Below, piece after piece: positions 9,235-56,701 of a DNA stretch of 64,000 nt; positions within the stretch are counted from its first letter, which is position 1, and every line of letters starts with the position of its first letter. Source of the DNA: Sanguinoderma infundibulare (taxonomy: Eukaryota > Basidiomycota > Agaricomycetes > Polyporales > Polyporaceae). The notes beneath the pieces were generated by a model. It was not told where the DNA came from. It worked only from the letters and a program-made list of their open reading frames with translations, and searched no databases. The stretch covers positions 3,720,001 through 3,784,000 of the forward strand of contig JAVLRN010000004.1 in NCBI GenBank assembly GCA_032821775.1, in the 5' to 3' direction. Both the position numbers and the translations under genes were made by a program.

Positions 9235-9617
9235 TCATTCGATCGTCTTCGGCAGAGTCGGCGCCTGGTCGCGGCGCGTGTCCTTCAGGAACGGCCACAT
9301 GCGCTGGTACGCCGCGAAGACGTCCGGAGCGGAGAGCGTCGTCGAGTGCTTCTCTCGCAGCCACGTCGTCAGCGTATGCCAGGCTTCCCGATCAGCAGGC
9401 TTCCACCTCCACCCCTTGCCGCGCCGCACGGACTTCATGACCTTGGGCAAGACCTCCCAGCGCGCCTCCGCCTGGGGCACGAAGACGAACCCGAGCTTCA
9501 ACGCGGTCATGCACAACCCCATGATCAGCCGCGTGGCGTTCTCCAACCGCGCCCTTTCGTCCCGAGGCGCGTCCTCCCAGCCCGCCGGGGGCTTGAAGAT
9601 GGGGCACGCTTGCAAGA
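9235..9617 (-). pseudogene. MYND-family C-terminal fragment
   Basis: An open minus-strand stretch of about 126 codons matches the C-terminal third of the MYND-family genes: a hydrophobic helix (IMGLCMTALKLGFVFVP), a basic patch (RRGKGWRWKP) and a terminal block with APDVFAAYQRMWPF, equivalent to SPQDVFAFYDRLWPF in copy 1. The finger and middle region are missing. At about 9617 the homology stops and F-box-family sequence begins in the same orientation, so the fragment was joined to an F-box copy by deletion or rearrangement. It has no proper start and is most likely non-functional unless expressed as a fusion. Confidence 0.65.
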
Positions 9618-10734
9618 AGGCCCTCGACGTGCCAGATCGAGTGTGATTCGTAGCTCAACTTCGTTCATGAAGGCCAATTTGTCCGCAGTGATCGCTTTGT
9701 CAACCTCCTCCAGCCGCGTTGAACATGCGTCGGTCGTTTAGGGCACTCACCCGACTCAGGCGGTGTAGGCAGATCGCCACCTTGCGCAACGTCTTTGATG
9801 CTTGGGAGAGAATGCCGGCACCGGCGAGACTCAGCACCGGGATATGCTCAGGTGGCGGTTTGTCGCCTTCACCGAAGTAGATGTGAATGGTCAGGGACTC
9901 GAGCTTCGGGCACGCGGCGAGGTTGAGTGCGTGCCAGTGGCCTGTGAGGAAACTCGTGAGCCTCACGCTCCATACTGTGACATGTCTAAAAATTACAGAC
10001 AAACGCACTATCAAGAGGGGCATTCCACAGATAGCTTGCCCCGTCGTCGAAGAGAGGTGCCCCGGGGCCATCGCATCCACCGATATCGAGGCTCTTTAGC
10101 TCCGCGCCTAAGCCCACGAGGAGCTTCAGAGAGCAGAGGCGAAATCCATTGATCGGCACTTGACGAAGAGGCACTGCAGGCTGCCGGGCTCTACTATGAC
10201 CTTCTCCAGTGCGTTTACGACCATCAGCATGCACCGCGGATCGGACAATTTCGCGAACCCGGTGCGAAGCGAAATCATCTTGATCCTTGCAGTCCGGTTA
10301 AATATTACTGGGTAGAGCGAGATGGAGGAGTCGAAGACGCCTGTTTCCCCATACACGTCAAATTCGTCGACCGCGAAGAACAGGGGAAAGGAAAGGATAT
10401 GGAACCAGCCGGAGACCGAAGAATAGCACGGGTAGGAACAGGGGCCAAAAGAGAATGCGTTGAGGTGGAAAAAAGCCGAGGTAGAGGCCATTTGGTGAGG
10501 TATCTTGTACGCGAAGTCGCAGACAGACAAGGATGAGGGGTTCAGCAATAGCTGTATGAGTGTAGCCATCACGGTGCCATCAATTGTGTGGGTGATGGAA
10601 ATGGGGGTATATTCCTTTCCCACTACCCCCATCCTGACCAGTGTAACCTTCCTGCGGCCCATAGCTGGAATTTCTTGGAGGAAGGATGTGAGGTGGTCGA
10701 ACGATCCATTAACGGGAACAGCTAAGCATCCCAA
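9618..10734 (-). pseudogene. F-box/LRR-like family copy A, lacking the F-box
   Basis: The minus-strand sequence carries the middle and late parts of a family seen four times here. The block VNGSFDHLTSFLQEIP begins near 10715, an ALEKVIVEPGSLQCLF segment lies near 10190, and after a probable intron come leucine-rich repeats (NLAACPKLESLTIHIYF, then LSLAGAGILSQASKTLRKVAI). The exon with the F-box is absent: at about 10735 the middle block abuts sequence that elsewhere lies upstream of the F-box exon. The last 80 bases of the family are also missing at the 9617 junction. F-box proteins recruit substrates to SCF ubiquitin ligases; this copy should not. Its divergent neighbour is MYND gene 2. Confidence 0.65.
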
Positions 10735-14104: not shown

Positions 14105-17100
14105 TCAGTCGTACCACCGCTCCCGCAGCCTCCTCCTCGCGACGATCGGCTTCGCGACGACGATGGCGAGCGCGAGGCCCGCGACGGTAATCACGAGCTG
14201 CGCCTTGTTGAAGCTCTCGCTGAGCACGTCGAACGTGTTCGACGGCGCGACCCGCGTGAAGAACATGTCCAGCCCGTACGCGAACACGAGCGACGTCGAC
14301 TCGAGCAGCGCCGGGGACGTGATGATCTCTCGCGTTTTGGCCACCTGCGGCAGACAGGGTGGGGTGTTCAACGGGATGCGTGGTTGAGGACTCGGGTGAG
14401 GGAGGGACGTGACGTACCTGGTAGTGGTGCGAGAGGACGCGCTTGGGGTCGTCGGGGAGGACGGGGTCGTACTGAATGAGCCACTCCTCGGCTTCCTGAG
14501 CGGTCGGCTTGTTCTTCGGGCGCCTTGGGTCGAGGAATCGACGAGGGAATGATTGGATCTGATTATTCTCGTTGGCGACTGGACAAATGCATGAGGGAGG
14601 TGAACGTAGCAACGCAAAGTCAACGGGAACTCACCGATGATGTCCTTGATAGTGATGCCATTGGTCGTCGAGGTCGGCGCGAGGGTGCGGATACCCCGAG
14701 GGAAGACGAAGGACTGCTCGTAGATGCTGAAGTTCGTCGTCTCGTTCGACATCGAGGACATATCCGAACTGTGCATACAGTCAGCCTCCGTCCACGGAAG
14801 TAGCAGATCATCCACACCTCTTGCGTTTGTCATCAACGCCGTCACCCTCATAGAACTCGACCGAGACGACGCGATATCCCTTCGCCTGGTTCACCCCCAC
14901 GTCCGCATCATAGTAATGATACACCAGCCAGTTCTCCACAAGCGCGGCCTTGACGTCGCACTTTCCACCGACCGCAGGTAGGACCGCATGGTACACGACC
15001 GTGCCCTTCGCGCCATCGACCAAATACACCCCACACGTCGCCTTCTCGCTCAGCGGCGCGCTCGACGGCGGGCCCGTCACGAAGCCCACAAGGTTCGAGT
15101 TCAGGTACTTGTACAGCGTCGTGCGGTTGCCCAGCACCTTGCCGAGCGACGCGACGGCGTCCGCGGGGCGCGTGAAGACGGTCAGGATGTCCTCAGATGC
15201 GGGGAACGGCAGCGACCACGTAGGGTATGCAACATGCTGCCCAGTGAACTCGACCTGCGCGGGCACCTGATGTCCTGTGATGCGACGCTGGCCTGGGGGA
15301 CCAGATCGCAGAGGGATGCGGAGCGCGGGCGCGATGGCCTCGAAAGCGAGCTTCGTCTGTTCCGTGTTAGGATACAGGTGAACCTGCAGGAACTCGTCAA
15401 GCAGGACGACCGTGCGCCCGGCGTCGGTCTTAACCAGGAAGGCCTCGACCAGCGGACCGGAGACGGCGTCTTCTCCCTCCAGAAGCTCGTTGCGGGCCGA
15501 CTGTCGTCGGGCGTCCTCTCCGGTTAAGGCATCGACGTGGAAGAGGACGGTATCGACGAGACCCTGCATGATTCCGATCTACGTAAGACCCCTGCACTCA
15601 AAATGCAAAAGGTTGCTGCTTACGTTGTCCGCCTTCCGCTGGGTCACCAGCACCACTTGCGGCGACTCCCCGTCGCTCACCGTCCTCGTGACGAGCATCT
15701 TCGCGGGGACGATCTGGCCGCCGACCTGTGCCGCCCAGCCGAGACCGAAGACGCGACTCCACAGAACCTCCCCGTTCGCCGAGTCGATGCCATACAGCTT
15801 GCCGTATGGGGTCGCCGCGACGATGACCTTCCTGAAGCCGAACGCGTCCCGCGCAAGGGGCTCGGATGCATTCCCGGAGGGCGCGACAGACGCGCTGACA
15901 GACGCGTATGACCCGGTCACGAAGCGGCGCACAAAGTTCACGGCATACTGCGGGAAGTCCTGCCAAAACTCAAACTTAGCCACCGAACCTGACAAGCATG
16001 TCACCCCATCTCACTACGGACGTACCTGGGCGTCCAGAAGCTGGCGTGCGACCCGTGCCGCAAACGTTTCCTGCTCACTCTCGCCTTGGGACGCGATCTT
16101 CCTTTCCGGAAGCTCGACGAGTTCGGCAGCGCGGATGTCGGCTAATCCTTCTTCCCGTGTCCATTGCAGTTGGTCCTGTTGCCACATCTGGACCGCACCA
16201 GTGGTTGTGGTCACGACCAGCCTCGTGAGAACCCTGTAGTGCTCTGGGTTGGCAGACTCGATAGCGACCTGTCGGACGGTCAGCACGAACGTACGGGTGG
16301 AAATACGGCTGGACAAACGTACGTGTCTGATGATGCCGTGGTCCCCTGTCTTGAACGGGAACGTGTAACCCGTAACGAGCCCCTTCCCGTCCGCGAGATG
16401 CGGCGCGAGGACGTGGGCAGACATTGTCTGGACAGTGACAGTCAATACCACCGGCTCTGCAAAGCGGCAGAGAACTCGCCTTCAAGGTATGTGTCCAGAA
16501 CACGCGCGCAACATAGGGGTTCCCATCGACATCCAGACCACCGGCGTAGATGGAGCCAGTGCGGGTGGGAGAGGTGGACTAGAAGAAATGGAAACGCGGT
16601 CAACTCGAGGCAACCGACCCTCGGCGGCGAAGCAGCCACGCACCGAATCCGCGTACTCCCAAATTACCTTCAGACCCTTGGGCGTAAGTTTAATGACCCG
16701 GCCAGAGCCGTCCTCGGTGATGGCAACGAATTGGCCGTATTCAGAAAGCCCGATATCTTCGATTTTCTGATAGACAGCACCCTTGATCACGCCAGGCTTC
16801 GCCTTCAACTCCGGGGTGAGCTCCAGAGACTTGATCTTGCCTTGTTCGAACCATACAACTCGATGGGAAGCTTCGGACCCTCTGACATCACTGAGGAAGA
16901 AGGCCTCGGATAGGTCGTTCGTCAGACTGGAAGGAACATCACCTGTGTGGATCACTTCGCCGCGGTCAAGCGTGAGGGACGTAATGTGCAACGTGTAGGA
17001 CGCGAACGATTTCGAGAGGCCGAGAAGATATACCGTGGAATGCGTTACTAAGACCTTGGCGTATACAACAAGAGAACTGCGGTTAAGAGCATCAGCGCTA

Positions 17101-18535
17101 TCACCGTCTGTGCTAAACAGGAGGCACTTACGTATGGTCCGGGGCTGTCCAGACCCATTTCACGTCACCAGTGTTGCGATCGACACGGTGAAGTGAGTGG
17201 CCGTTGGTGAGGACGTAGAAGTCATTCTGGTTGTCTTCGGCTCCAAAGGCGACGGCGGCGCCCAAAGAAGCGGGCTCTTGCAAACGGCCAGCTTCGGGAT
17301 CGTGCAGCCTCCTCTCGAGGAGCAACTGCCCTGACTCGGAGTCGAAGACACGTAAATGAGCCCCTCCTGGACCAGAAAGGGCGACGACAACTGCGGACAG
17401 AAGTCAGCACTGGTTTCCTGAGCGCGATGAGGTACAAACAGGCAATGGTTAATTCTGATTAATTATGATTCATTCGTTGGGCATCTTGGACGCTCAACAG
17501 GTAAGGCCATGTTACAGCCTCATCATCAAACGCAAACTCGGGCATGTAGCCCAAATAGGGAGAGGAGTATACAACCACACAGACACGCTCCCCGCACCAG
17601 ATGGACTGGATTGTCGGCGGTGAAACCCTCGATAGATGCGACTGGTAAGCCTAACGAGGAAGCAGTATGGTGCGTAGCAAGAACGCACACAACACGACGC
17701 AACGCGCCTCAGCTACAGGAGGTCTGATTGACCGTTCGCTCCAACATTCTGAATTATCCAGGACGTCGGTGAATGAGTACATGTAGCCAGACTTTGCCTG
17801 CCAGCCGCTCTGCTTTATTAGCAAGGAAGCAATCACGTCGGTTGAGGCCATCAGCCCGTCGTGCCTACTAAAGAGGTCGACATCCTGAACCACGAAGCCC
17901 TAGGCTTACATGACATATATTAGACTTGAGGCAAGGCACGATGTCCAAACGGATAGTATTATCCAGAGGAATTGGTGCAAGCACGGGTATGTCGGTGGGG
18001 GGACCGAATTGCCGTCTACAAGAACCATGGTCCAGAAGGCCTCTTCTAGCCCAGGTACGCGATTGAAGGCATACGGAGAGACTTCGCGCCGCAACGCCAC
18101 CACGACCGCCAATGACATCGATGGAATCCGACAACTACGACCGAAGGTTCGAATGAAAGCTCAGATGCATAACACTCACCATCTTTGTCTTTCCTGAATC
18201 CAACGACATGGTCGTCGTCATCGAAGAGATGTCGCCATGCTGTACTTGACAACGTTTGTTCCTTAGTCCCGTGTACGAGCCCCAGAGCGCCGTCACTCAC
18301 CTATGGACCCATTGACGGAGTGCAACGCGGCAAGGACATTGCTCTGCGTCGCCGTCAGAACAACACTGCTCGTTTGCCCGTCCTCGGATCTCCTCCTGTG
18401 GAAGACGGGTGCGGTAGAGTCGGATTGAACAAGAGGTACGCCAGCGAGAGGCTTGTGCCAGTTTGTGACGCCGGCTTCATAGGAATGAAGAGCGCGCGCG
18501 CATGTTGCCAGGAGTAGCAGGAAGATAGGCCTCAT
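14105..18535 (-). CDS. EMC1: ER membrane protein complex subunit 1 (EMC1)
   Basis: This is a multi-exon gene on the minus strand starting at 18535 with a signal peptide (MRPIFLLLLATCARA) and ending in a C-terminal membrane helix (LVITVAGLALAIVVAKP) plus a basic tail (RRRLRERWYD). The family pattern is clear: ALSGPGGAHLRVFD, VLTNGHSLHRVD, KWVWTAPDHTSLVVYAK, then the DUF1620 domain with PYGKLYGIDSANG, ALRIPLRSGPPGQRR and SFVFPRGIRTLAPTST. Usable exon ends include 18535-18301, 18239-18180, 17390-17132 and 17076-16644. EMC1 is the large lumenal and membrane scaffold of the EMC, which inserts tail-anchored and multipass proteins into the ER. The intron 17391-18179 is unusually long (789 bases). 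The exon ending at 16480 is followed by a GC donor (GCGAGT) instead of GT. The gene is head to head with a kinase-like gene, and that pair is duplicated at 55-60 kb. Confidence 0.92.
17391..18179 (-). other. Long intron of EMC1 with ORF-like content
   Basis: Other EMC1 introns here are about 50-90 bases, but this one is 789 bases. It contains a minus-strand open stretch (VVVALRREVSPYAFNRVPG, near 18070-18118). A similar open stretch (ITLRREVPPYTFIRGTGS) lies at the equivalent place in the pseudogene copy at 57138-57200. The extra sequence was therefore present before the duplication. No domain was recognised. Confidence 0.45.
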
Positions 18536-18956
18536 CGAGGCTGCTGCAGCCTACCAAGAGTCAACGCAGTTTTAGTAGAGGAGGAGGAGGAGAAGGAGGA
18601 GGCGAAGACAGTAGCGGTGGCCTGGCCGGCAGCATCACCCTCGTGCGTCACCCCCAACGCGTCAACGCGTTCAATTGACGCCCGTGGGCCTGCGGATCAC
18701 GGGCCGTTATTGCCGCCCACTACATAATCAGACGCCCACAAAGTTGAAGTTGGAAGCGGACCCCCGGTTTCTTCTTACTGCTCCATCGATATCGTCACCA
18801 ACATTTTCAAGCAGAGGATAGTTCAGCAAATAAGTACTGTGGCACCGTCGCCACATCCAACAGGGATATACTTATCTGTAGGCTGCATCACGTCGTCCAC
18901 CGCACCCAATCTTGCGCAACCACAGCTGCTGTCCGCTGCCAGTTGGCTTTCTAGAT
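18536..18956. promoter_or_regulatory. Divergent promoter region, EMC1 / kinase-like gene 1
   Basis: This 421-base spacer separates the two head-to-head genes. Part of it, including the stretch around CCACTACATAATCAGACGC and the last 180 bases before the kinase-like gene, is recognisable in inverted orientation at 56330-56550. It also has a GAG/GGA-rich run at 18576-18604 close to EMC1, which is a CGTC/TCC-rich run in the copy (56620-56650). Confidence 0.5.
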
Positions 18957-20035
18957 ATGGCTGAGCTCAGCAAGAAACGCCGCGCCCTGGTGAGTGTATG
19001 ATCGTCTACGTTTACTTAATGACTACTGGCTAAGCCGATCCACTAGTCTTTGGACGCGATTACGTCGCTCTGCATCGAATCCGGGCTCGGGAAGGATCAA
19101 AGTGGCAATCCCATACAGGTCCTTCTTTCTCGAGCGGCGCCGCCGCCCTCCAGGACGGTCCTGCCCAGGGACTTCGAGAAGTTCCCCACCATGTTTCTCC
19201 CAGCCTTGCCGCCAATCCCGCCGCCGCCGCCACCCAGCGGTGGTCCGCCGTTGGTCCTCCGGGTTCACTTAGACGAAGAGCTTCCGAAACCCAACGAGGA
19301 CGAGTACTACGACAGCGATGAGGAGGACGAGGAAGATTACTACAATGCTCTAGCCGAGCGACGCTCTTGGGTCTTCGCGCTCAAGGTAGTCGACCCGGAG
19401 AGCTATCCTTTCTACGTCCCTCCCTTGGTCATCAAAATCGCCGGCGAACGAAGGGGAAAGGCGCTAGCCCAGGAAGCGGGGATGTACCAAGACATGCACT
19501 CTATCCAAGGCTTCGTCGTCGCTCGGTGCTTCGGGTACTTCCGTTCAACCGTCGATCTGCGGACGATGTCAATCGTGCCATGGGATCCAAAGTGCAAGTT
19601 CCCTATCGATCCCAACGACGACTTCCGGCCTCCCCACCCCTCGGCGAGCCTCAACGTCATGGTTTTGGAACGACTCGGGGACCATATTCCCATCGGGAGC
19701 GTTCCTAAGAAGGAGTTGCAGTGCGTTTCCACAAGCAATGTCGTCGAGTTTAGGCTAACATGACGATCGTTTCCAGGGACGAGCTGATGGCCATGTTTGG
19801 GCAACTCATCAACCTCAATATCGACCACCAAGATGTCATCTACTCGAACATTCTATGCGCACCTGTCTCACCCCCCGGTCTGAAAGGCAAACGGTCTTCC
19901 AAGTCAAAGCGTCCATTCAACTACCGCATCATCGACTTTGAGCTCTCGAGGAGAATCAACGAGACTCCTGGGGGTATGAAGGAGGCAGTGTGGCCCTGGG
20001 TCTGTGACATTGCCGACTATGCAAGCCAACATTGA
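18957..20035 (+). CDS. Small kinase-like protein, copy 1
   Basis: Three exons, 18957-18989, 19047-19720 and 19777-20035, give about 321 residues. A proline run (PPIPPPPPPSGGPP) and an acidic stretch (YYDSDEEDEEDYYN) precede the domain. The C-terminal third has an HxD-x4-N catalytic-loop-like motif (HQDVIYSNIL, residues 253-262) and IIDFELS at 287-293, where the magnesium-binding DFG would be. LVIKIAGERRG near residue 125 probably supplies the ATP-binding lysine. This is the pattern of the protein-kinase-like superfamily, degenerate versions of which are abundant in mushrooms. Activity is uncertain. It is divergent from EMC1 and converges on a phosphatase 3' fragment. Copies 2 and 3 are nearly identical. 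Confidence 0.75.
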
Positions 20036-20039
20036 ACCG

Positions 20040-20475
20040 AGGCGCGTTGGTCTTCTCATGCACGGCGTTGCACCTGTACTATGTGTCCATTTCCATAGAG
20101 CGCGACTACGTATGAATCTAGTAGCAATTTCGTGATCCACCAAGAGTCATTGCATCCCCCGAAGATGTTCTCTGGAACCTGTGCGTCAAGGCTGTTGATA
20201 AACGTATCCATCTGGATCCACTCGAACCCAGGAACCACCGTCCCCTCGTGACAGGCACGCACAAAGTGCTCCTCTCCGCTCGCTGGCCAGACTTGCCACA
20301 AGGTCGAGGGACACGCCTACCTCCATGACGACCTCGGACCCCCCGCGGGCCACGGCAGGAGCACGATCTTCCCAAACCCGACCGGGCACGCGAGGCGGAT
20401 CAACGTTTCGTCGTGTCAGACATAGAACCGCAGCTTGAACCGCTCGATCCCGGATGGCAGAATTTGAATGCCCTT
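20040..20475 (-). pseudogene. Histidine acid phosphatase 3' fragment, copy 1
   Basis: The minus strand carries the last two exons of the phosphatase whose complete gene is at 51535-53374. It matches GEEHFVRACHEGTVVPGF, then MDTFINSLDAQVPENIF. The catalytic N-terminus (RHxxRTP) is missing and the frame is broken near 20400. It converges on kinase-like gene 1 and is joined upstream to F-box copy B. Confidence 0.7.
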
Positions 20476-20544: not shown

Positions 20545-21370
20545 TACCACTTCGTAACTTTGAGCAATGCTCGCGAGTGGAGACCTGGCAAGGCATCTTG
20601 GATACCGACGACGACGTCTTCCCAAGGTTCACGTTCCACCGACCGAGAGCGAATGTGATGCGTAGATCGACCTCTTCCACAACGGGAAACCTGTCCGAAC
20701 AGATCGCCTTATCGACCTTTTCCAGCCCTAACATGCATCGATGGTGCGGGATGTTGGTCATCTGAGGCAGGCCGCTCAGGTAGATCGCGACCCTGCGCAA
20801 CGTCTTTGATGTTTGGGAGAGCATGCTGGCACCAGCGAGACTCAGCACCGGAATACCCTTCGGCTGCGGGTCCTCTAACGGCGAAGGGAAGTAGATGTGG
20901 ATGGTCAGGGACTCGAGCTTCGGGCATGAGGCGAGATTAAGATCGTGCAACTGGCCTGTAAGGTGGAAGGTAAGTCATGATCATCACGCGCCGGACTGTG
21001 ACATATTTGAAACGGAAAACAAACGCACCATCGAGAGGGTCATTCCAATCACCTTAATTGTGCATGCAAGAAGGACGATGTAGCACCGCATCCATCGATC
21101 TCTAGGCTCATGAGCTGCGCGCCCGAGCGCACGAGGAGGTATCCAATAGCAGCGGCGATGGCCGGCGACGTGTACTACTGGGCAGAGAGGTCCTGCAGAC
21201 TGCCTGGCTCTATGACCTTCTCCAGCCCGTTCAGGAGCATAAGCGTGGACCTCGGATCCGACCATTTCGTCAGGCCACGAAGCGCAAGCATCTTCGTTTG
21301 TTCCCGGACAGGACAAGGATGTTTGAGTACACATACTCCCGGTAGACCGAAACGATTACTTTACGATAGG
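20545..21370 (-). pseudogene. F-box/LRR-like family copy B, 5'-truncated
   Basis: Minus-strand homology to the other family members includes LRGLTKWSDPRSTLML (near 21280), GLEKVIEPGSLQ, an in-frame stop soon after it, a probable intron ending at 20960, and LRR-like repeats (NLASCPKLESLTIHIYF, then LSLAGASMLSQTSKTLRRVAI). The F-box exon is missing; upstream lies the glutathione transferase gene. The 3' side runs directly into the phosphatase fragment. It is a decayed copy. Confidence 0.6.
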
Positions 21371-24157: not shown

Positions 24158-24723
24158 TCACCACCGGACCTCCGTAACTTTAAGCAATCCTCGCAAGTGA
24201 AGACCAGGCAAGGCCTTGTGAGCCCCAGCGACGACGTCTTCCCAAGGCCCTCGACGTTCCAGATCGAGTATGATGCGTAGCTCGACTTCTTCCATGAAGG
24301 GGAACTTGTCCGCAGTTACCGCTTTGTCGAACTCTTCCAGCCGTAACATGCGTCGGTCGTCTAGGGTGGTCGCCAGACTCAGGCCGTGCAGGTAGATCAC
24401 AACCTTGCGTAACGTCTTTGATGCTTGGAAGAGCATGCCGGCGCGGGCGAGACTCAGCACCGGGATATCCTCAGGCTGGCATTTGTCTGAGTCAACTGAT
24501 ACTCGGAGGTAGATGTGGATGGTCAGGGACTCGAGCTTCGGGCACGCGGCGAGGTTGAGTACGTGTCGGTGGCACTGCATGACCGCAAAGACCGTCTGTC
24601 CGGCTTGATACGGGAGATTATAATGAAGAGCAGTTCTACAGGTAGAACGCACAGCTGCAGCGTAAGATACCCGCTGAGACGTGCCATCAGAGCGAGTGGA
24701 CGGTGGTGGTCGGAACGAAACAC
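24158..24723 (-). pseudogene. F-box/LRR-like family copy C, internally deleted
   Basis: The minus strand begins with an F-box (CVLPVELLFIIISRIKP, near 24640) in the family's usual setting (SDHHRPLALMARLS). At about 24575 it jumps in another frame to the leucine-rich part (HVLNLAACPKLESLTIHIY, then LSLARAGMLFQASKTLRKVVI) and ends GLLKVTEVRW at 24158. Several hundred codons present in copies A and B are missing, and the frames do not join. Its promoter has been pushed 5.7 kb away by the palindromic element at 24743. Confidence 0.7.
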
Positions 24724-24734
24724 GTTGGCGCTTA

Positions 24735-24742
24735 ATCACGAG
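24735..24742 (+). repeat. Target-site duplication, left (ATCACGAG)
   Basis: ATCACGAG stands directly before the left end of the palindromic element and recurs directly after its right end at 30415-30422. Comparison with the intact-looking upstream region at 63300-63340 shows that the insertion split the 5' region of F-box copy C at this point. Confidence 0.8.
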
Positions 24743-24770
24743 CACCTGATCATCACGGTATTCCCACATA

Positions 24771-24808
24771 ATTAGGCTGGCATGGCGCCTATCGCATGGC
24801 AGCCTAAT
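24771..24808. repeat. Subterminal hairpin of the palindromic element
   Basis: ATTAGGCTGGCAT and ATGGCAGCCTAAT form a 13-base stem with one mismatch around a 12-base loop, starting 28 bases inside the end. The mirror copy is at 30349-30386. Such subterminal hairpins may be transposase-binding or end-recognition structures. Confidence 0.6.
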
Positions 24809-24825
24809 AACCTCGAAACACGTTA

Positions 24826-26310
24826 CAGTACTTTGCATAAAACACTGCAGGCCGCGTGCCCGCAAAAACCTATTTGTATCTATTTGTACCGTGTCCAAAC
24901 CCTAGGGTTTGTGTGACAATTGTTCAGTTTTCACTCCCTCGGCACTGTTGCCTGCCGCCGCCTGGGTACCTTGCTCTTGACTTCATCATGGTTTGAGCCT
25001 TGGCCCTCAGGATAGTATCCTGTCTAGCAGGCGAGCACCGGTTTGGGCCTCATTTAGTTTTCCGCTTCTACGGACTGAGGAAGGAGGTCGATTGGTGGGG
25101 CATAAGGGAATACTGTACACGGTGGAGGTATGACTGCTATCTATCGTACATGACTCACGAGCGCATATATACCGGTGTCACTTCGAACAGCGGGACGAGG
25201 GGAAGTATTGAGGGCGTTATGCGGATTTTCGTCTAAGTGGTGTACATACGCACTGCACTGGATCATAGAGGGTCGTACGAAATAGGGATTGGATTGAATC
25301 ACACATTGCGAGACCAACACGGAGAGACGGGATAAGCAAGGGGCGAGAAGGGCGAGATGTGACGATGTACTGTACACGGCGGATGACTGCTAGCTATCGT
25401 ACACAAGCATATATACTGATGCCACTTCGAACGGTAGAGATGAGGGGAAGTACAGAGGCGCGATGTAGGGGTTTTCGTCTATGTGGTGCAATACGGACTG
25501 CGGTGGATCATAGACGGTTGTGTGCAGTTACGAGCAGACTGAAACACCGAACGCGAGACTAGGACAGAGAGACTGGACAGGCAAGGTACGAGAAGGGATA
25601 TGGACGTGGTGGAACTGGTACACATGACTTGGAATTCAGAGTGCGAGCGGATGGGAGTAGGCGACACTGAGCAGCTTGGTGGACGAGCACCACCTTGCGA
25701 GCGAAATCGGTGCACGTCTGCTGGCATTCATCGAGGCGGCATCTTGACCGCTGGGCAGAGAGGGATGTACTCTTTATCGCGATGGAACAGCACCTCTCGA
25801 CAATACACACCTTTATATATCCTGATGGGGGCTGACCACCGCGCAATCCCACCCATCCTCTACCAGCTCAGAATGCCAAAATCCAACACTCGCAACCGGG
25901 TATGCTCAGGACCAGCCGGGCTCGTTCATGTCCAGAATGAGCTTGTCGGTGTCCAGATTGCGCTAGCTTGTTGTGACTTGGGCGGAATTGTTGTACCGGA
26001 GCTGATGGAAAAGATTGGGGTGGCAGGGGACAAAGTGGGTCGACTTGGGGCGAAGGATGACAGCGTAGGTAGCTCAGAGAAGATGCAGCAAGTGGAACGG
26101 TGAGGGATGGACTGAGGGAGACGTAGATTGGGTAGGAGATGCAAGCTGAGGAGTGTGATGCGAATCATCACGATCATTAATCACAAAGAATTGTCACGCG
26201 GGGATAAGCTGTCTCCCCAAAATGGTAAATCACCCCATTTGTTGATGGAACAAATAGATACAAACAGGTTTTGCGGGCATGCGACCTGCAGTGTTTTATG
26301 CAAAGTACTG
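24826..26310. mobile_element. Nested TA-flanked TIR element (left arm)
   Basis: The ends CAGTACTTTGCATAAAAC... and ...GTTTTATGCAAAGTACTG are inverted, with similarity extending over about 60 bases (24826-24890 and 26250-26310), and TA stands outside each end. A TA duplication and a CAGT start fit the Tc1/mariner-pogo group. No transposase was recognised in the 1,485 bases, so it is a non-autonomous copy nested in the progenitor of the palindrome. The mirror copy is at 28847-30331. Confidence 0.65.
25111..25610 (+). repeat. Two-copy degenerate tandem repeat (left arm)
   Basis: The unit starting TACTGTACACGG at 25111 recurs at 25368, a period of about 257 bases. Shared landmarks include ATGACTGCTA, CTATCGTACA, CACTTCGAACG, TTTTCGTCTA and GGATCATAGA. 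The copies differ by scattered changes and small indels, so the duplication is older than the palindrome. The mirror copy is at 29547-30046. Confidence 0.65.
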
Positions 26311-26379
26311 TAAACCCCAGCACTGCCAGTAAGACTGCCAATACACCCCTCCGGAATACTGCTTAAGGTAAGGATCAGC

Positions 26380-27108
26380 GTCCCCGCTATCAAGTCGTTA
26401 TCTGGGTTACTGATAATGAGGCTATCATCGATCACAGATAACGCTGGGCGTTGAATACGAGGTTCCCGCGCATCCCGCCGGCGCCACCGCTCCCTCCCAC
26501 GTCCGCGGCTGCCGGACTAGTCGTGCTCGCTGTCTCCGACGGTGAGCACGACTATCTCCACCATTTCTTCACTGTTTCATCCCATTCTTTCACCAATCGT
26601 AGTTAGATACATATCTAGATCATGTTTATCAACATGTCGAGCCACTACAGCCCACTCCGCCCTCCCTGGCGGCATCTTGAGAATTTGCAACTGCAGTCGG
26701 CGCCAACCGTGGGGCGTTGAGTATCGCGCGCCTCCGTGTTTCTTCCCAATAGGGAAGGTCACCATGAAGCAAACATTCTTGGAGTTGTTCTGAGGGCAAT
26801 ACTTATCCGATTTCGTTCGTTTTAGGCTTGTTTTTTTCGTGATTTTAAGATGGTTCCAACGCGTCCAGCAGTGTATTATTAAGTGAGCTATTGACTGTGC
26901 TATCAGGTATACAATGGTTGCCTCAAACAAGTAAAGAATGGTATGTATCTCGATCAATTCTCCATGTATCTGTTCATGAAAGGGCTCGTTGGAACTGCAC
27001 TACGAATGCGGTTCCAACGAGGCCTTGGACGTATGAATCCGTCCATCAGTTCCCGAGATATGCTGACCCTCACCTCCTACCAGGAGGACAGGTAGGCATA
27101 TCTCGGGA
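26380..27108. repeat. Cluster of hairpins in the inner arm
   Basis: Four short inverted repeats were seen: GTTATCTG/CAGATAAC (about 26397-26444), TAGTCGTGCTC/GAGCACGACTA (26518-26554), CTCGTTGGAAC/GTTCCAACGAG (26985-27021) and TCCCGAGATATGC/GCATATCTCGGGA (27051-27108). A longer imperfect pair (GTTCGTTTTAGGCTTG at 26815 and its complement near 27500) brackets the segment. All are mirrored in the right arm. They are not explained by any coding function. Confidence 0.55.
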
Positions 27109-27541
27109 CTTAGACCTCCTATTTGCGTCGTTTTTGTTGCTAACGATATCTACATGTCACTATAGCATGGGAACCTCTATATGCGGCCGCTGTATGCCCT
27201 GTATAAATTTCAGAAAGGTGAGTCCTGTATTCCAGTGCTTAACCCATTCTCACCAAGATATCTCTGTCCCACATTGCGTCCCCTTGGATTTCTATAGCTC
27301 ATCTGAAAGCTGTGGTTCGGGGCTTTCCAGCGACCCCCATATTGCCTATGTACCATTGCTAGAACAGCCAGAATTCATATCCCTTTCTCCTCCCCCCTGT
27401 GTGCCTAATGTTTTGCATACAGCTCTCCCAAATGTTTGCCAATCGTCATGTATTATACCCTGTTGGAATCAGGAAATATACTGCTTTCAAACAAGCCCAA
27501 AACGAACAAAATCGACCACAAACTCGCTAAGATACAGATTG

Positions 27542-27615
27542 TAGCATCCGGATGGCTAGTGTCCAAGTAATATTGCATTGGGTTATGGCTGCCTTAGGCT
27601 AGCTCCTGGGTTCTG
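27542..27615. other. Unpaired centre of the palindrome
   Basis: These 74 bases have no inverted partner and would form the loop. They include a small near-palindrome, CATCCGGATG, at 27546-27555. The centre lies at 27578.5. Confidence 0.8.
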
Positions 27616-30414
27616 CAATCTGTATCTTAGCGAGTTTGTGGTCGATTTTGTTCGTTTTGGGCTTGTTTGAAAGCAGTATATTTCCTGATTCCAACAGGGT
27701 ATAATACATGACGATTGGCAAACATTTGGGAGAGCTGTATGCAAAACATTAGGCACACAGGGGGGAGGAGAAAGGGATATGAATTCTGGCTGTTCTAGCA
27801 ATGGTACATAGGCAATATGGGGGTCGCTGGAAAGCCCCGAACCACAGCTTTCAGATGAGCTATAGAAATCCAAGGGGACGCAATGTGGGACAGAGATATC
27901 TTGGTGAGAATGGGTTAAGCACTGGAATACAGGACTCACCTTTCTGAAATTTATACAGGGCATACAGCGGCCGCATATAGAGGTTCCCATGCTATAGTGA
28001 CATGTAGATATCGTTAGCAACAAAAACGACGCAAATAGGAGGTCTAAGTCCCGAGATATGCCTACCTGTCCTCCTGGTAGGAGGTGAGGGTCAGCATATC
28101 TCGGGAACTGATGGACGGATTCATACGTCCAAGGCCTCGTTGGAACCGCATTCGTAGTGCAGTTCCAACGAGCCCTTTCATGAACAGATACATGGAGAAT
28201 TGATCGAGATACATACCATTCTTTACTTGTTTGAGGCAACCATTGTATACCTGATAGCACAGTCAATAGCTCACTTAATAATACACTGCTGGACGCGTTG
28301 GAACCATCTTAAAATCACGAAAAAAACAAGCCTAAAACGAACGAAATCGGATAAGTATTGCCCTCAGAACAACTCCAAGAATGTTTGCTTCATGGTGACC
28401 TTCCCTATTGGGAAGAAACACGGAGGCGCGCGATACTCAACGCCCCACGGTTGGCGCCGACTGCAGTTGCAAATTCTCAAGATGCCGCCAGGGAGGGCGG
28501 AGTGGGCTGTAGTGGCTCGACATGTTGATAAACATGATCTAGATATGTATCTAACTACGATTGGTGAAAGAATGGGATGAAACAGTGAAGAAATGGTGGA
28601 GATAGTCGTGCTCACCGTCGGAGACAGCGAGCACGACTAGTCCGGCAGCCGCGGACGTGGGAGGGAGCGGTGGCGCCGGCGGGATGCGCGGGAACCTCGT
28701 ATTCAACGCCCAGCGTTATCTGTGATCGATGATAGCCTCATTATCAGTAACCCAGATAACGACTTGATAGCGGGGACGCTGATCCTTACCTTAAGCAGTA
28801 TTCCGGAGGGGTGTATTGGCAGTCTTACTGGCAGTGCTGGGGTTTACAGTACTTTGCATAAAACACTGCAGGTCGCATGCCCGCAAAACCTGTTTGTATC
28901 TATTTGTTCCATCAACAAATGGGGTGATTTACCATTTTGGGGAGACAGCTTATCCCCGCGTGACAATTCTTTGTGATTAATGATCGTGATGATTCGCATC
29001 ACACTCCTCAGCTTGCATCTCCTACCCAATCTACGTCTCCCTCAGTCCATCCCTCACCGTTCCACTTGCTGCATCTTCTCTGAGCTACCTACGCTGTCAT
29101 CCTTCGCCCCAAGTCGACCCACTTTGTCCCCTGCCACCCCAATCTTTTCCATCAGCTCCGGTACAACAATTCCGCCCAAGTCACAACAAGCTAGCGCAAT
29201 CTGGACACCGACAAGCTCATTCTGGACATGAACGAGCCCGGCTGGTCCTGAGCATACCCGGTTGCGAGTGTTGGATTTTGGCATTCTGAGCTGGTAGAGG
29301 ATGGGTGGGATTGCGCGGTGGTCAGCCCCCATCAGGATATATAAAGGTGTGTATTGTCGAGAGGTGCTGTTCCATCGCGATAAAGAGTACATCCCTCTCT
29401 GCCCAGCGGTCAAGATGCCGCCTCGATGAATGCCAGCAGACGTGCACCGATTTCGCTCGCAAGGTGGTGCTCGTCCACCAAGCTGCTCAGTGTCGCCTAC
29501 TCCCATCCGCTCGCACTCTGAATTCCAAGTCATGTGTACCAGTTCCACCACGTCCATATCCCTTCTCGTACCTTGCCTGTCCAGTCTCTCTGTCCTAGTC
29601 TCGCGTTCGGTGTTTCAGTCTGCTCGTAACTGCACACAACCGTCTATGATCCACCGCAGTCCGTATTGCACCACATAGACGAAAACCCCTACATCACGCC
29701 TCTGTACTTCCCCTCATCTCTACCGTTCGAAGTGGCATCAGTATATATGCTTGTGTACGATAGCTAGCAGTCATCCGCCGTGTACAGTACATCGTCACAT
29801 CTCGCCCTTCTCGCCCCTTGCTTATCCCGTCTCTCCGTGTTGGTCTCGCAATGTGTGATTCAATCCAATCCCTATTTCGTACGACCCTCTATGATCCAGT
29901 GCAGTGCGTATGTACACCACTTAGACGAAAATCCGCATAACGCCCTCAATACTTCCCCTCGTCCCGCTGTTCGAAGTGACGCCGGTATATATGCGCTCGT
30001 GAGTCATGTACGATAGATAGCAGTCATACCTCCACCGTGTACAGTATTCCCTTATGCCCCACCAATCGACCTCCTTCCTCAGTCCGTAGAAGCGGAAAAC
30101 TAAATGAGGCCCAAACCGGTGCTCGCCTGCTAGACAGGATACTATCCTGAGGGCCAAGGCTCAAACCATGATGAAGTCAAGAGCAAGGTACCCAGGCGGC
30201 GGCAGGCAACAGTGCCGAGGGAGTGAAAACTGAACAATTGTCACACAAACCCTAGGGTTTGGACACGGTACAAATAGATACAAATAGGTTTTTGCGGGCA
30301 CGCGGCCTGCAGTGTTTTATGCAAAGTACTGTAACGTGTTTCGAGGTTATTAGGCTGCCATGCGATAGGCGCCATGCCAGCCTAATTATGTGGGAATACC
30401 GTGATGATCAGGTG
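27616..30414 (-). repeat. Right arm of the palindrome
   Basis: 2,799 bases, inverted complement of 24743-27541 with one difference noticed (29981). The inner features of the left arm appear in reverse order. The mirrored reading frames of the two arms are the same proteins apart from one Thr/Ala change. Confidence 0.9.
28847..30331. mobile_element. Nested TA-flanked TIR element (right arm)
   Basis: Mirror image of the element at 24826-26310, with the same CAGTACT ends and flanking TA bases. It is not an independent insertion: its position is exactly the palindrome partner of the left copy. Confidence 0.65.
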
Positions 30415-30422
30415 ATCACGAG
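30415..30422 (+). repeat. Target-site duplication, right (ATCACGAG)
   Basis: Direct repeat of 24735-24742, immediately after the last base of the palindrome. Beyond it the sequence matches the region upstream of the F-box exon at 63278-63320. Confidence 0.8.
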
Positions 30423-51534: not shown

Positions 51535-53374
51535 ATGAACCGCTACCTGGCGTGGTTCTTACGCATTCCCGTTCTATGTTGTCTAGCGAGACTCGCATCC
51601 AGCCAGTCGGGGACAATATCGTCCGTAGCAGGCGTCTACAACTCATCAACAACTCCCGCGAATCTCCCATGGAACACGTACAACTACTGCAATGCCCCAC
51701 ACGTCAATGCTAAGCACTATTCCAAGCCAACCAACGCCTCGGATGCGAAGCTTGTCTACATGAACGCGGTCATCCGCCACCACAAGGTATGTCAACGGAC
51801 ATGGACCGAGAGAACATGAGCTGACCCACCGCTGATGTAGCGCACTCCGGACAATCTCTACCCGAAGGAGAATGAACTGAACTCTATCCCGTGGAATTGC
51901 GCAGACTTCCCCCAATTTAATTATGGAGGGGGGAGCCCGTCGGCACAGATCTTCCACAACACGGAGCTTCCTGCCTGGCACCCGTTTCTCTCGCTGTTTT
52001 GGAATGGTACCTGCGACGAAGGCCAACTGACACGCGAGGGTCTCGTGGATTCTATTGCACATGGGAAGGTATCGTCTATTCCTTGGCCCCTCTTCGGAGC
52101 GAGTGCCGGGCCTTCTACGCTTCTCCTGCTGCACGGAAACTGATAGCGATCCTAGGATTTCTGGGGCGTATACGCCCACGAACTCGGGTTCCTGCAATCT
52201 GTCAACGAGAGGGACATCTTCGTTCGGACGTCCGTTGAGACGAGGACAATGCAAGTTGCCGGTGGTGTCATCGCGGGCATGGATCCTACTTTTGCGTCGA
52301 AGGCCTTTCCGGTCACGACGCAGCCTTCGCCGGTGAGTTTCCTGACATTCCCAGCCGTTTGGCACAAGTCGCCATGCCTACAGTCGCACGGTGTTCAACG
52401 AATGCTGTTGCCAAACATATTGCAGAATTTCATAGTACACTTCCCAATTACTGATGATGTCTTCCTCTCGCAGATCGACTCCATCCCGCCGAACTACCCA
52501 TGCGCGAACGCGAACAACATCCGCAACGCGTACCAGTCCGTGCCGGCCTGGACGGACCATCTCCAGCAAAATGCCGATCTGAAGGCGCGGCTGGATGCCA
52601 CGCTCGGCACCGCCGGGCTCGCCGACTGGGCTTCCTGGTGTGAGTTTCGCCATTAGCCGTTCAACTTCTCGACTTCGACGGTTCCACTGCACCCCTTGTG
52701 CTTAAGAATCAAACGGCTCATCGCCGCACCCACAGACGATCACTTCTTCGACACGTTTTCCTCGCGGACGTGTCATGGCCACCCCCTGCCGTGCAACTCG
52801 ACCGGGGGCTGCGTGTCCGAAGCCGACGCCGCGAAGGTGTTCGCGATCGGCGACTTTGAGTACAAGTGCGTGCCATGCCCGCGCTGAATCGCGCCTGATG
52901 ACGTATGCATCGTGTTGACCGGCCGCTTCTATAGCTACATCTGGAACGCCGCGGTGAACGCGACGGTGTACAACCAGCTGACGGCCGGGGTGTTCGTGCA
53001 GGAGCTCGCGCAGAACTTCAAGCTGTTCAGGGAAGGTGGCGAGCGGTTCAAGCTGCGGTTCTACGTCGGACACGACGGGACGCTGATCCGCCTCGCGTCC
53101 GCGCTCGGGTTCGGGAAGATCGCGCCCCTTCGGTGGCCCGCGCTTGGGTCCGAGATCGTCATGGAGGTAGGCGTGTCCCCCGACGTCGTCTAAAATGGTG
53201 TGCTGATGGGCATCGTCGCAGGTTTGGCAGGCGGGCGGGGAGGAGCACTTTGTGCGCGTCTTCCACGAGGGGACGGTGGTGCATGGGTTCGAGTGGATCG
53301 AGATAGATACGTTTATCAACAGCCTTGACGCACAGGTTCCAGAGAACATCTTCGAAGCATGCAATGGGCCTTGA
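51535..53374 (+). CDS. Secreted histidine acid phosphatase
   Basis: Seven exons, 51535-51786, 51841-52068, 52156-52332, 52474-52639, 52736-52865, 52935-53166 and 53222-53374, give about 445 residues. The first 23 or so residues are a signal peptide (LRIPVLCCLARLASSQS). The catalytic motif RHHKRTP (residues 81-87) holds the phospho-accepting histidine, and the proton donor pair GHDG is at 363-366. Several Asn-X-Ser/Thr sites (for example NSST and NGTC) and paired cysteines fit secretion. The two-domain fold belongs to the phosphoglycerate mutase-like branch 2; such enzymes scavenge phosphate from organic esters outside the cell. Its 3' end converges on kinase-like gene 2, and its last exons are duplicated as fragments at 20.0 and 55.0 kb. 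This is the only complete copy. Confidence 0.88.
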
Positions 53375-53476
53375 GCCATCACCAAATTTCTACCAGATAC
53401 ATGTAGTTGCGCTCTACACAAATGGATACATAGTACAGTTGCAACACCGTGCATGAGAAGACCAACGCGCCTCGGT

Positions 53477-54555
53477 TCAACGTCGGCCTGCATCGTCGGC
53501 AATCATACGGACCCAGTTCCACACTGCCTCCTTCATACCCCTAGGAGTCTCGTTGATTCTCCTCGAGAGCTCAAAGTCGATGATGCGGTAGTTGAATCGA
53601 CGCTTTGACTTGGAAGACCGTTTGCCTTTCAGACCAGGGGGTGAGGCCGGTGCGCATAGAATGTTCGAGTAGATGACATCTTGGTGGTCGATATTGAGCT
53701 TAATGAGTTGCCCAAACATGGCCATGAGCTCGTCACTGGAAACGATCGTCATGTTAGCCTAAACTCGAGGACATTGCTTGTGGAAACGCACTGCAGCTCC
53801 TTCTTAGGAACGCTCCCGATGGGAATATGGTCTCCAAGTCGTTCCAAAACCATGACGTTGAGGCTGGCCGAGGGGTGGGGAGGCCTGAAGTCGTCGTTGG
53901 GATCGATAGGGAACTTGCACTTTGGATCCCATGGTACGATCGACATCGTCCGCAGATCGACGGTTGAACGGAAGTAGCCGAAGCACCGAGCGACGACGAA
54001 GCCTTGGATAGAGTGCATGTCTTGGTACATCCCCGCCTCCTGGGCTAGGGCCTTTCCCCTCCGTTCGCCGGCAATTTTGATGACCAAGGGAGGGACGTAG
54101 AAAGGATAGCTCTCCGGGTCGACTACCTTGAGCGCGAAGACCCAAGAGCGTCGCTCGGCTAGAGCATTGTAGTAATCTTCCTCGTCCTCCTCATCGCTGT
54201 CGTAGTACTCGTCCTCGTTGGGTTTCGGAAGCTCTTCGTCTAACTGAACCCGGAGCACTAACGGCGGACCACCGCTGGGTGGCGGCGGCGGAGGGATTGG
54301 CGGCAAGGCTGGGAGATACATGGTGGGGAACTTCTCGAAGTCCCTGGGCAGGACCGTCCTGTAGGGCGCCGGCGCGGCTCGAGAAAGAAGGACCTGTATG
54401 GGATTGCCACTTTGATCCTTCCCGAGCCCGGATTCGATGCAGAGCGACGTAATCGCGTCCAAAGGCTAGTGGATCGGCTTAGCCAGTAGCCATTAAGCAA
54501 ACGTAGACGATCATACACTCACCAGGGCGCGGCGTTTCTTGCTGAGCTCAGGCAT
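53477..54555 (-). CDS. Small kinase-like protein, copy 2
   Basis: Exons 54555-54523, 54465-53792 and 53735-53477 give about 321 residues, colinear with copy 1 in exon lengths (33, 674 and 259 bases). Sequence is nearly identical, including IDHQDVIYSNIL, RIIDFELSRR and the acidic YYDSDEEDEEDYYN stretch. Differences include MPELS at the start instead of MAELS and an H for Q at the second splice junction. The frame is intact. It ends 102 bases from the end of the phosphatase gene, on the opposite strand. It probably arose by duplication together with the phosphatase 3' end. Confidence 0.75.
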
Positions 54556-54849
54556 GTCTAAACAGTCAAGTGCCAGCAGAGACAGCTGTGGTTGAAGAAG
54601 TTTGGTTGGTTTCCTGCTGTGCGGCGGAGTCAAGAATTTGCTGAGCCACCCTATCGACTGTCAATGTTGCGGTTCGACAAGGTGAGCAACAGTGGAGAAG
54701 TTAGCGACGATGACGGTGGAGTATAGAGGGAGTTCAACGCTCTGCGGGTTTCGGTGGCTGTTGATGGCTCCGGGCCTCCGGCCGTCCATGGGCGTCAACG
54801 GGACAGAGGCCACACCGATGCAGCCGCCATACGACTTACCTTATGTACA
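54556..54849. other. Spacer between duplicated modules
   Basis: This stretch lies between kinase-like gene 2 and the next F-box/phosphatase scrap. It lacks the EMC1-side promoter sequence found upstream of copies 1 and 3, so the duplicated block ends close to the start codon here. No gene was recognised. Confidence 0.4.
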
Positions 54850-55142
54850 TCACACAGGCAGTGGTATACTCTTAACCTCGCCTTGTGCTCGAAGCTCGAG
54901 TCCTCTTGTCCACATCTATTTCCCTGCCTCCTCTGACGACCCGCAGTCGTGGGGGAGGGTGGTGCGTGGGTTTGTGTGGATCCCGATGGATACATTTATC
55001 AATAGCTTTGTCGCACAGGTTCCGGAGAACATTTTCGAGGGATGCAATGACTCTTGGTGGATCACGAAATTGTTACTAGATTCATACGTAGTCGCGCTCT
55101 ATGGAAATGGACACATAGTACAGGTGCAACACCGTGCATGAG
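54850..55142 (+). pseudogene. Fused scrap of F-box family and phosphatase 3' end
   Basis: The first hundred bases match the leucine-rich part of the F-box family (TLNLALCSKLES, then PHLFP). From about 54955 it becomes the last phosphatase exon (VRGFVWIPMDTFINSF, VAQVPENIFEGCNDSWW) and runs to a stop at 55142. The same order, F-box then phosphatase 3' end then convergent kinase-like gene, exists at 21.3-19.0 kb on the other strand. It is non-functional. Confidence 0.65.
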
Positions 55143-55161
55143 AAGACCAACGCGCCTCGGT

Positions 55162-56312
55162 TCAATGTTGGCCTGCATAGTCGGCAATCATACGGACCCA
55201 GTTCCACACTGCCTCCTTCATAGCCCCAGGAGTCTTGTTGATTCTCCTCGAGAGCTCAAAGTCGATGATGCGGTAGTTGAATCGACGCTTTGACTTGGAA
55301 GACCGTTTGCCTTTCAGACCAGGGGGTGAGGCCGGTGCGCATAGAATGTTCGAGTAGATGACATCTTGGTGGTCGATATTGAGGTTGATGAGTTGCCGAA
55401 ACATGGCCGTGAGCTCGTCCCTGGAAACGATCGTCATGTTAGCCTAAACTCGAGGACATTGCTTGTGGAAACGCACTGCAACTCCTTCTTAGGAACACTC
55501 CCGATGGGAATATGGTCTCCAAGTCGTTCTAAAACCATGACGTTGAGGCTCGCCGAGGGGTGGGGAGGCCTGAAGTCGTCGTTGGGATCGATAGGGAACT
55601 TGCACTTTGGATCCCATGGTACGATTGACATCGTCCGCAGATCGACGGTTGAACGGAAGTAGCCGAAGCACCGAGCGACGACAAAGCCTTGGATAGAGTG
55701 CATGTCTTGGTACATCCCCGCCTCCTGGGCTAGGGCCTTTCCCCTCCGTTCGCCGGCGATTTTGATGACCAAGGGAGGGACGTAGAAAGGATAGCTCTCC
55801 GGGTCGACTACCTTGAGCGCGAAGACCCAAGAGCGTCGCTCGGCTAGAGCATTGAAGTAATCTTCCTCGTCCTCCTCGTCCTCCTCGTCGTCCGACCAGT
55901 CCTTGTGCACGTCCTCTTCCTCCTCGTCATCGAACTCATCCTTGTCGTGCTTCTCCTCATCTGGTGGTGTCTGGGTGAGTATAGGAAGCTCTTCGTCTAG
56001 CTGAACCCGGAGCACTAACGGCGGGCCACCGCTCAGTGGCGGCGGCGGAGGGAGGGGCGGCAAGGCTGGTAGATACATGTTGGGGAACTTCTCGAAGTGC
56101 TTGGGCAGGACCGTCCTGGAGGGCGCCGGCACCGCTCGAGAAAGAAGGACCTGTATGGGATTGCCACTTTGATCCTTCCCGAGCCCGGATTCGATGCAGA
56201 GCGACGTAATCGCGTCCAAAGGCTAGTGGATCGGCTTAGCCAGTAGTCATTAAGAAAACGTAGACGATCATACACTCACCAGGGCGCGGCGTTTCTTGCT
56301 GAGCTCAGCCAT
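55162..56312 (-). CDS. Small kinase-like protein, copy 3, with acidic insertion
   Basis: Exons 56312-56280, 56222-55477 and 55420-55162 give about 345 residues. Exons 1 and 3 match copies 1 and 2 in length; exon 2 is 72 bases longer. The extra 24 residues fall in the acidic linker and add a second Asp/Glu-rich run (DEFDDEEEEDVHKDWSDDEE). The catalytic-loop-like HQDVIYSN and IIDFELS motifs are kept. It is head to head with the EMC1 pseudogene, mirroring the intact EMC1/kinase-like pair at 14-20 kb, and tail to tail with a phosphatase scrap. The frame is open, so it may be expressed. Confidence 0.75.
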
Positions 56313-56701
56313 ATCTAGAAAGCCAACTGGCAGCGGACAGCTGTGGTTGCGCAAGATTGGGTGCGGTGGATGACGTGATACAGCCTACAGATAAGTATAT
56401 CCGTGTTGGATGGTGCCACTTATTTGTTGAGCTATCCTCTGCTTGAAAATGTTGGTGACGATGTCGATGGAGCAGCAAGAAGAAACCGGCGGTCGGCTTC
56501 CAACTTTGTGGGTGTCTAATTATGTAGTGGGCGCCAATAACGGCACGTGATCCGTAAGCTCACGAGCGTCAACGCACGAGTCGCGACGGTGATACCTGCC
56601 GGCCTACTGTCTTCATCTCGTCATCATCGTCGTCGTCGTCGTCCTCCTCCACTCGCTCACCTCTAGAACTCCCTTGACTCTCGTTAGCTGCAGCAGCCTC
56701 G
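56313..56701. promoter_or_regulatory. Copy of the EMC1/kinase-like divergent region
   Basis: The sequence is recognisably the inverted copy of 18536-18956, for example GGTTGCGCAAGATTGGG, TATCCGTGTTGGATG and TAATTATGTAGTGGGCG. The EMC1 side has diverged more than the kinase-like side and includes a GTC-repeat-like run (CATCGTCGTCGTCGTCG, 56627-56643). Confidence 0.5.

Follow-up and report, generated by a model that had tools for sequence, protein, structure and literature searches.

A palindromic element with KDZ-type ends and a core from a separate palindromic family in Sanguinoderma infundibulare

Long palindromes are usually held to be unstable, and the origin of the long matching arms of foldback elements is, to our knowledge, unsettled. 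The giant palindromic element described here, found in a 64,000-nucleotide stretch of the genome of the basidiomycete Sanguinoderma infundibulare (contig JAVLRN010000004.1, positions 3,720,001 to 3,784,000; the whole stretch is hereafter called the window), has the structure of a foldback element and the ends of Kyakuja-Dileera-Zisupton (KDZ) DNA transposons. Long inverted repeats are documented for foldback elements of both animals and plants, and the arms of the window palindrome, for which a first-pass annotation knew of no fungal counterpart of such length lacking a recognisable transposase, are to that extent not new in kind (PMC4079207, PMC3169594). For Tetris, the accessible text proposes that repeats were homogenised just in the interior of two out of three complete copies (PMC4079207). 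Among KDZ elements, KDZ1-KDZ3 of Cryptococcus are reported to be 9.2-11 kb long, with terminal inverted repeats (TIRs) of 139-241 bp and target-site duplications of 8 bp in KDZ1 and 4-8 bp in KDZ2 and KDZ3 (PMC12810828); a further source gives 8-bp duplications for Zisupton, and 7-bp duplications, CA..TG ends and no TIRs for Kyakuja families (PMC12730594). Among the papers listed in a literature search, judged by title and abstract opening and with most subscription journals outside its coverage, there was no fungal palindromic transposon with arm correction. The window element is a nested three-layer chimera of three element families, not one homogeneous element, and the family that supplies its centre offers a view of how such arms may be kept alike.

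Structure and boundaries of the window palindrome

The genome searched comprises 48.9 Mb in 87 contigs, the window lying on contig 4 (C4; labels C1-C13 denote contigs, and labels of the type L001 denote loci that were read). Among the 120 of 225 matches listed for a gene of the window, the best is a Dichomitus squalens protein (79%) and the next named one comes from Ganoderma leucocontextum (77%), in keeping with a polypore-type basidiomycete. The palindrome spans positions 24743-30414 of the window (C4:3744743-3750414) and is centred on 27578.5 in the arm alignment. The two 2,799-bp arms reported at first pass, at 24743..27541 on the forward strand and 27616..30414 on the reverse strand, are present as described, whereas base-by-base alignment gives two mismatches and not the single one noticed initially: T against C at 25176 (mirror position 29981) and C against T at 25461 (mirror position 29696), both read on the left-arm strand. 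Past the arms the pairing goes on imperfectly as far as 27549/27608, so that 58 nt (27550-27607) separate the extended arms; these 58 nt lie within a loop region (27542..27615) that is homologous to the loop of the core family described below. Chance is excluded as the source of pairing of this extent (log10 P of about -1,684 at equal base frequencies).

The 8-bp target-site duplication ATCACGAG lies directly outside the left arm (24735..24742) and directly outside the right arm (30415..30422) and is exact on both sides, as the first-pass annotation had stated; the flanks beyond it show no mirror symmetry between the two sides. The arms hold 5,598 of the 5,672 bp of the element, which together with the target duplication gives it the structure of a foldback element, and the palindrome is confirmed as real. 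A coding element was considered and rejected: eight open reading frames of the left arm (82-217 aa) match no Pfam family at E <=0.01, and no KDZ match falls inside.

KDZ-type ends, a palindromic centre and a passenger

The ends of the window element belong to a KDZ family with 8-bp duplications. Its left terminal block (24743..24825, forward strand) starts with CACCTGATCATCACGG and closes on two bases that are the TA of an inserted element; the mirror block occupies 30332..30414 on the reverse strand. A subterminal block, which in relatives directly follows the terminal one, lies at 26311..26733 (forward strand), with its mirror at 28424..28846 (reverse strand). Over 83 bp the terminal block is 81-89% identical to the seven other termini read, and the subterminal block recurs full-length at 83-87% at seven places in C4, C7 and C13 elements and partially, at 90-91%, at two more. 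The relatives carry further subterminal units about 310 bp apart, the window element a single one.

Searching the genome for the terminus CACCTGATCATCACGG, as proposed at first pass, gave nine exact sites, and a longer terminal pattern (<=3 mismatches) gave 11, arranged as five inverted pairs and one single site 13 kb from the end of contig 3. Apart from the window, the pairs are C4:1246289-1256652, C4:1386787-1409267, C7:789038-801032 and C13:619201-629312, and all four contain matches to the KDZ domain PF18758 over cut-off, at C4:1252780-1253790, at C4:1389359-1389514 and 1399600-1403091, at C7:794675-795685 and at C13:625722-626732, respectively. These elements span 10.1-22.5 kb, three of them 10.1-12.0 kb; the 22.5-kb pair at C4:1386787, which holds three groups of KDZ matches, may be nested. 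Exact 8-bp duplications bound each of the four pairs whose flanks were read, ATCACGAG in the window and CCGCCGAT, ACCAATCG and GCCAGTCC in the two C4 pairs and the C7 pair, the C13 pair lying outside this count. The recurrence of the termini with different 8-bp duplications bears out the earlier proposal that the palindrome entered this site as one unit and did not form there by inverted duplication of resident DNA.

None of the 87 PF18758 matches in the genome lies inside C4:3744743-3750414. Since the window element has no KDZ transposase of its own, it is not called an autonomous KDZ element and is at most non-autonomous. The first-pass statement that it has no recognisable transposase holds for its interior, while a putative source of transposase can be named, namely the same-terminus elements with their KDZ matches. 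The cysteine-cluster domain CxC1 (PF18802), which is reported next to some fungal KDZ transposases, has 46 matches in the genome; among the four same-terminus elements there is one only, in that of C13, and it is sub-threshold (25.5 bits against a cut-off of 26.9).

The centre of the element (26734..28423, arm positions 1992-2836 and their mirror, 1,690 bp) is a symmetrically truncated copy of a second family, referred to here as the core family. This 1,690-bp core matches 18 other places in the genome end to end at 85-87%, all belonging to longer palindromic elements of 2.2-2.5 kb with 7-bp duplications, in a family of about 20 copies. Fourteen of those read, termed P2, measure 2,448-2,459 bp, end in GAGCAGCTTCAG and GTAGGTATTCAG and have a 7-bp duplication that is exact in 13 copies and mismatched in one; the four termed P1 (L040, L048, L051 and L053) measure 2,191-2,234 bp and all have exact 7-bp duplications, that of L040 carrying little weight as it sits in a CACCCA-rich stretch. 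The palindrome nearly reaches the element ends in three of the four P1 copies. Eight single-arm relatives, 1,524-1,546 bp long by their paired termini, consist of one arm plus the loop, and exact 7-bp duplications bound both of the two that were read. Exact P2-type termini (33 and 34 of the two ends) form 30 inverted pairs <=4.1 kb apart, leaving 3 and 4 unpaired; the pairs comprise 15 of P2 type, one of them interrupted, eight single-arm elements and seven others. One P1-type terminus has eight exact occurrences in the genome. The interrupted P2 copy (C8:2204462-2208550) and a partial copy (C9:2488854-2490182) are not among the copies read. The KDZ element C7:789038-801032 harbours a full P2 copy, which is bounded by a 7-bp duplication of its own (ACTTTGA) and has KDZ subterminal repeats on either side.

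Several further features of the core family were noted. The interrupted P2-type element of C8 is 4.1 kb long, its arms being held apart at the loop by some 1.6 kb of additional DNA, and C8:1197623-1199072 is a shorter relative that has core termini and contains a separate palindrome (about 690 bp). Two of the seven other terminus pairs are only 102 bp (C11:473379-473480) and 209 bp (C9:2061395-2061603) long and, judging from their coordinates, are possible minimal elements. The motif GGATGCATCC, a possible transposase site, occurs near the ends of L044 (1065, 1125, 1197, 3412) and L058 (2794, 2827, 2850, 2886, 4239) and is absent from L048, L053 and the window element. No autonomous partner of the family was found between exact paired termini, diverged termini being outside the search. 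A hAT transposase, considered as mobiliser on account of the 7-bp duplications, found no support, the eight genome matches to the hAT dimerisation domain PF05699 all lying elsewhere than between paired core termini. The outer arms of the family (L040-L057, up to about 250 bp outside the 1,690-bp core) contain, by eye, an outward-pointing tRNA-like box sequence, GGTTCAAATCC, in each arm. A structured RNA or tRNA was nonetheless rejected: ARAGORN found none in ten loci or the window, and Rfam (E <=0.05) gave three matches in eight loci, all below gathering scores and none a tRNA.

The third layer is a TA-flanked insertion carried by both arms, at 24826..26310 on the forward strand and, at the mirrored position, 28847..30331 on the reverse strand, with TIRs of about 67 bp beginning CAGTACTTTGC. 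It resembles a miniature inverted-repeat transposable element (MITE), and may be a TA-duplicating one of the Tc1/mariner type. A separate copy at C10:27149-28638 (L011) is 99.7% identical to arm positions 82-1571 (window 24824-26313), and the termini L001, L002, L004 and L008, which are without the element, run straight through its site. The two window arms and the copy on C10 disagree at five positions, each of them CpG on C10 and changed to TpG in one arm or both; three of these are common to both arms and one is private to each. This pattern is as expected of methylated, decaying DNA. The insertion also contains diverged (72%) internal repeats.

Concerted change of arms and loop inversion in the core family

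The arms of the core family change together within a copy, as arm-to-arm gene conversion and exchange would give. Six lineages, with P2 represented by L044 alongside the four P1 copies and the window, were compared over 790 columns. In all 15 pairwise comparisons, 76-117 sites carried the same change in the two arms and 0-3 were changed otherwise, where independent change would be expected to give about 5 shared sites and reached a maximum of 14 in 2,000 simulations. The lineages are 10-15% apart and yet have near-identical arms within each copy. The same holds at shorter range: among 11 P2 copies with 996-bp arms (of the 14, L041, L042 and L049 were left out of these counts for their divergent tracts), 39 sites are symmetric, 27 of them private to one copy, while six are single-arm and two mixed. 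Single-arm changes amount to 8 in 21,912 bases, and six of these eight fall in the outer 14% of the arm, where homology ends, a distribution noticed after the fact. For 29 of 38 arms the strictly nearest sequence is the partner arm of the same copy; four others, those of L045 and L046, are tied, being identical over the columns used, and five are exceptions that are weighed below. In a tree of the 38 arms, most pair by copy.

Two other ways of producing such symmetry were rejected. A mutagenic hairpin cycle is at odds with the frequency of private changes, which per site is no higher in the arms than in the unique tails (27 of 996 in P2 arms against 16 of 367 in tails; Fisher p = 0.16). Independent re-formation of the palindrome in each lineage is contradicted both by the homology of the loop across the 18 copies and the window element and by private symmetric changes in copies at most about 2% apart.

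The loop itself occurs both ways round with respect to the unique ends, in a ratio of 7:7 among the 14 P2 copies and of 1:3 among those of P1. L045 and L046, when compared after inversion of the 58-bp loop in either, are identical but for 6 of 2,459 positions, four of which make up two mirror pairs. A divergent loop-proximal tract (columns ~617-807) occupies the right arm of L041, whose loop has orientation R, and the left arm of L042, whose loop has orientation F; the arms differ at 43 of 818 positions in the former and 42 of 818 in the latter. The two copies appear as if related by a flip through exchange outside the tract. In L049 the left arm has the divergent tract over its whole length, while in the right arm it goes no further than column 769, which looks like a conversion tract that ended before the loop. 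No source for the tract was found in the genome search; apart from these three copies, the best of the loci shown is the window element, at 85%.

Origin of the window element and comparison with known systems

We consider it probable that the window element is a non-autonomous transposon with KDZ ends that arose around a captured palindrome, was symmetrised by outward copying and was moved by a KDZ transposase. The truncation of its core falls at the same point on either side, where the same KDZ block follows, and the TA element is mirrored too; because two independent identical truncations and two identical TA insertions are implausible, one side was presumably copied to the other. The process would have begun with a core palindrome landing inside a KDZ element, an arrangement with a present-day parallel in C7:789038-801032, where the KDZ element with its inner P2 copy is the kind of precursor required. 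One side of the resident palindrome would then have been truncated, and arm-arm recombination or fold-back-primed synthesis would have copied this truncated side outward, past the old palindrome and through the KDZ end, onto the other side, yielding two identical inverted KDZ ends. KDZ transposase supplied in trans could have cut the product and inserted it at ATCACGAG, transposition presumably trimming it to the form observed. Arm recombination may still keep the window arms identical; their two single-arm changes, 0.036% per site, are at about the same level as those of P2. We put forward more tentatively, as a plausible generalisation, that the core family consists permanently of near-perfect palindromes through recombination of its arms, which erases single-arm mutations and randomises loops, and that inside another transposon the same process can extend outward and symmetrise the host end together with anything else located there, making in one step a giant palindromic transposon with host termini.

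A number of observations weigh against this account. No second palindrome with KDZ ends was found, nor any donor or intermediate for the window element, and its KDZ blocks are only 81-91% like other KDZ copies, so that the parent lineage is missing. Mobilisation by a KDZ transposase in trans is putative, and some of the KDZ matches contain stop codons, which may reflect either introns or decay, so that an active copy is only presumed. The junction sequence CTTCGGC, shared by the core and the KDZ copy L002, is weak evidence, in that the KDZ copy L004 is without it and that, by eye, it is not whole at the window junction. For five of the 38 arms (both of L041, both of L042 and one of L049) the nearest sequence belongs to another copy and not to the partner arm, and the private changes of P2 may owe their symmetry to transposition instead of to events at the resident locus. 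Finally, one fold-back event without later correction would explain the window copy equally well. The first-pass annotation had left the choice between recent origin and active arm correction open, and the window copy alone indeed cannot separate them; its central family, by contrast, shows both correction and loop flipping.

A single recent fold-back or inverted duplication in a KDZ element, followed by one move and no later correction, would make the near-identity of the arms a matter of youth. This agrees with the presence of only two mismatches in 2,799 bp, with the single CpG-to-TpG change private to each arm relative to the C10 copy, as in the independent decay of a young element, and with the failure to find a second such copy. 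We nevertheless regard it as somewhat unlikely given that the core family corrects and flips its arms, and that three more CpG-to-TpG differences from C10 are common to both arms, though these may predate the duplication. A fold-back origin is, moreover, common to both accounts, which differ only in the later correction.

Rather less likely, in our judgement, is that the symmetry of the arms is renewed at transposition and not by recombination at the resident locus: each cycle of excision or insertion would include a hairpin or gap-repair stage in which one arm serves as template for the other and the loop orientation becomes random. The near 1:1 loop orientation and the scarcity of single-arm changes would both fit flip-flop in a hairpin-copying cycle, and those changes would then date the last move. 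Four suggestive observations speak for resident recombination instead: L041 and L042 fit a flip with a breakpoint >=200 bp outside the loop, the second-arm tract of L049 ends short of the loop as ordinary recombination gives, the single-arm changes cluster post hoc in the part of the arm where homologous tracts should run out, and one of the 14 P2 duplications is already mismatched. That unresolved or missed-adapter long reads made or symmetrised the palindrome is very unlikely even though perfect palindromes are a known assembly failure mode, as the symmetry ends at a transposon terminus with an 8-bp duplication and unlike flanks, real arm differences are kept in L041 and L042, the 18 further core copies have distinct flanks and behave alike, and the contigs reach 4-5 Mb.

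The surroundings of the palindrome hold repeats of their own. An inverted segmental duplication at window positions 14986-20446 and 53040-59862 (pieces of 52-1,178 bp, 78-98% alike) brackets the middle 33 kb of the window, palindrome included, and its right copy is itself partly repeated (53403-54580 and 54952-56341). Three diverged copies of another stretch lie at 9617-9949, 20550-20963 and 24170-24581, the palindrome being inserted beside the third.

The behaviour of the core family suggests how giant palindromes arise and stay perfect, and the window element illustrates that the terminus and centre of one mobile unit can derive from different families. Within this one genome, about 20 palindromic copies and relatives with a single arm can be compared in several states: copies whose arms differ, a tract copied in part, loops in inverted orientation, a palindrome lodged in a KDZ element and the product with KDZ ends. 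Such a range permits direct tests of arm correction, of its rate compared with mutation and of the outward growth of palindromes.

Compared with described KDZ transposons, the window-element family likewise contains PF18758 and has 8-bp duplications like Zisupton and CA..TG ends like Kyakuja (PMC12730594), and three of the four same-terminus elements are similar in length to KDZ1-KDZ3 of Cryptococcus (PMC12810828). The window element differs from KDZ transposons in having no transposase, in being nearly all palindromic and in that most of each arm is non-KDZ. Its mirrored insertion shares inverted-repeat ends and a TA duplication with TA-duplicating MITEs, but is only a passenger here, with no transposase assigned. 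The palindromes of sex chromosomes (mammalian Y, willow W) also have arms kept alike by conversion and were recognised by the same test, lineages that differ while arms agree; those are chromosomal and tens of kb and more in size, whereas the present ones are dispersed mobile elements of 2-6 kb (PMC7023750). The window element also resembles the foldback elements FB, Galileo, Tetris and Tm1, which have very long inverted repeats around a short middle and of which Tetris, like the window element, has no autonomous partner found (PMC4079207, PMC3169594). The window element is a further variant of the foldback kind, with KDZ ends, set apart from those described by its tiny unique loop, its KDZ terminus and a centre that is the palindrome of a second family.

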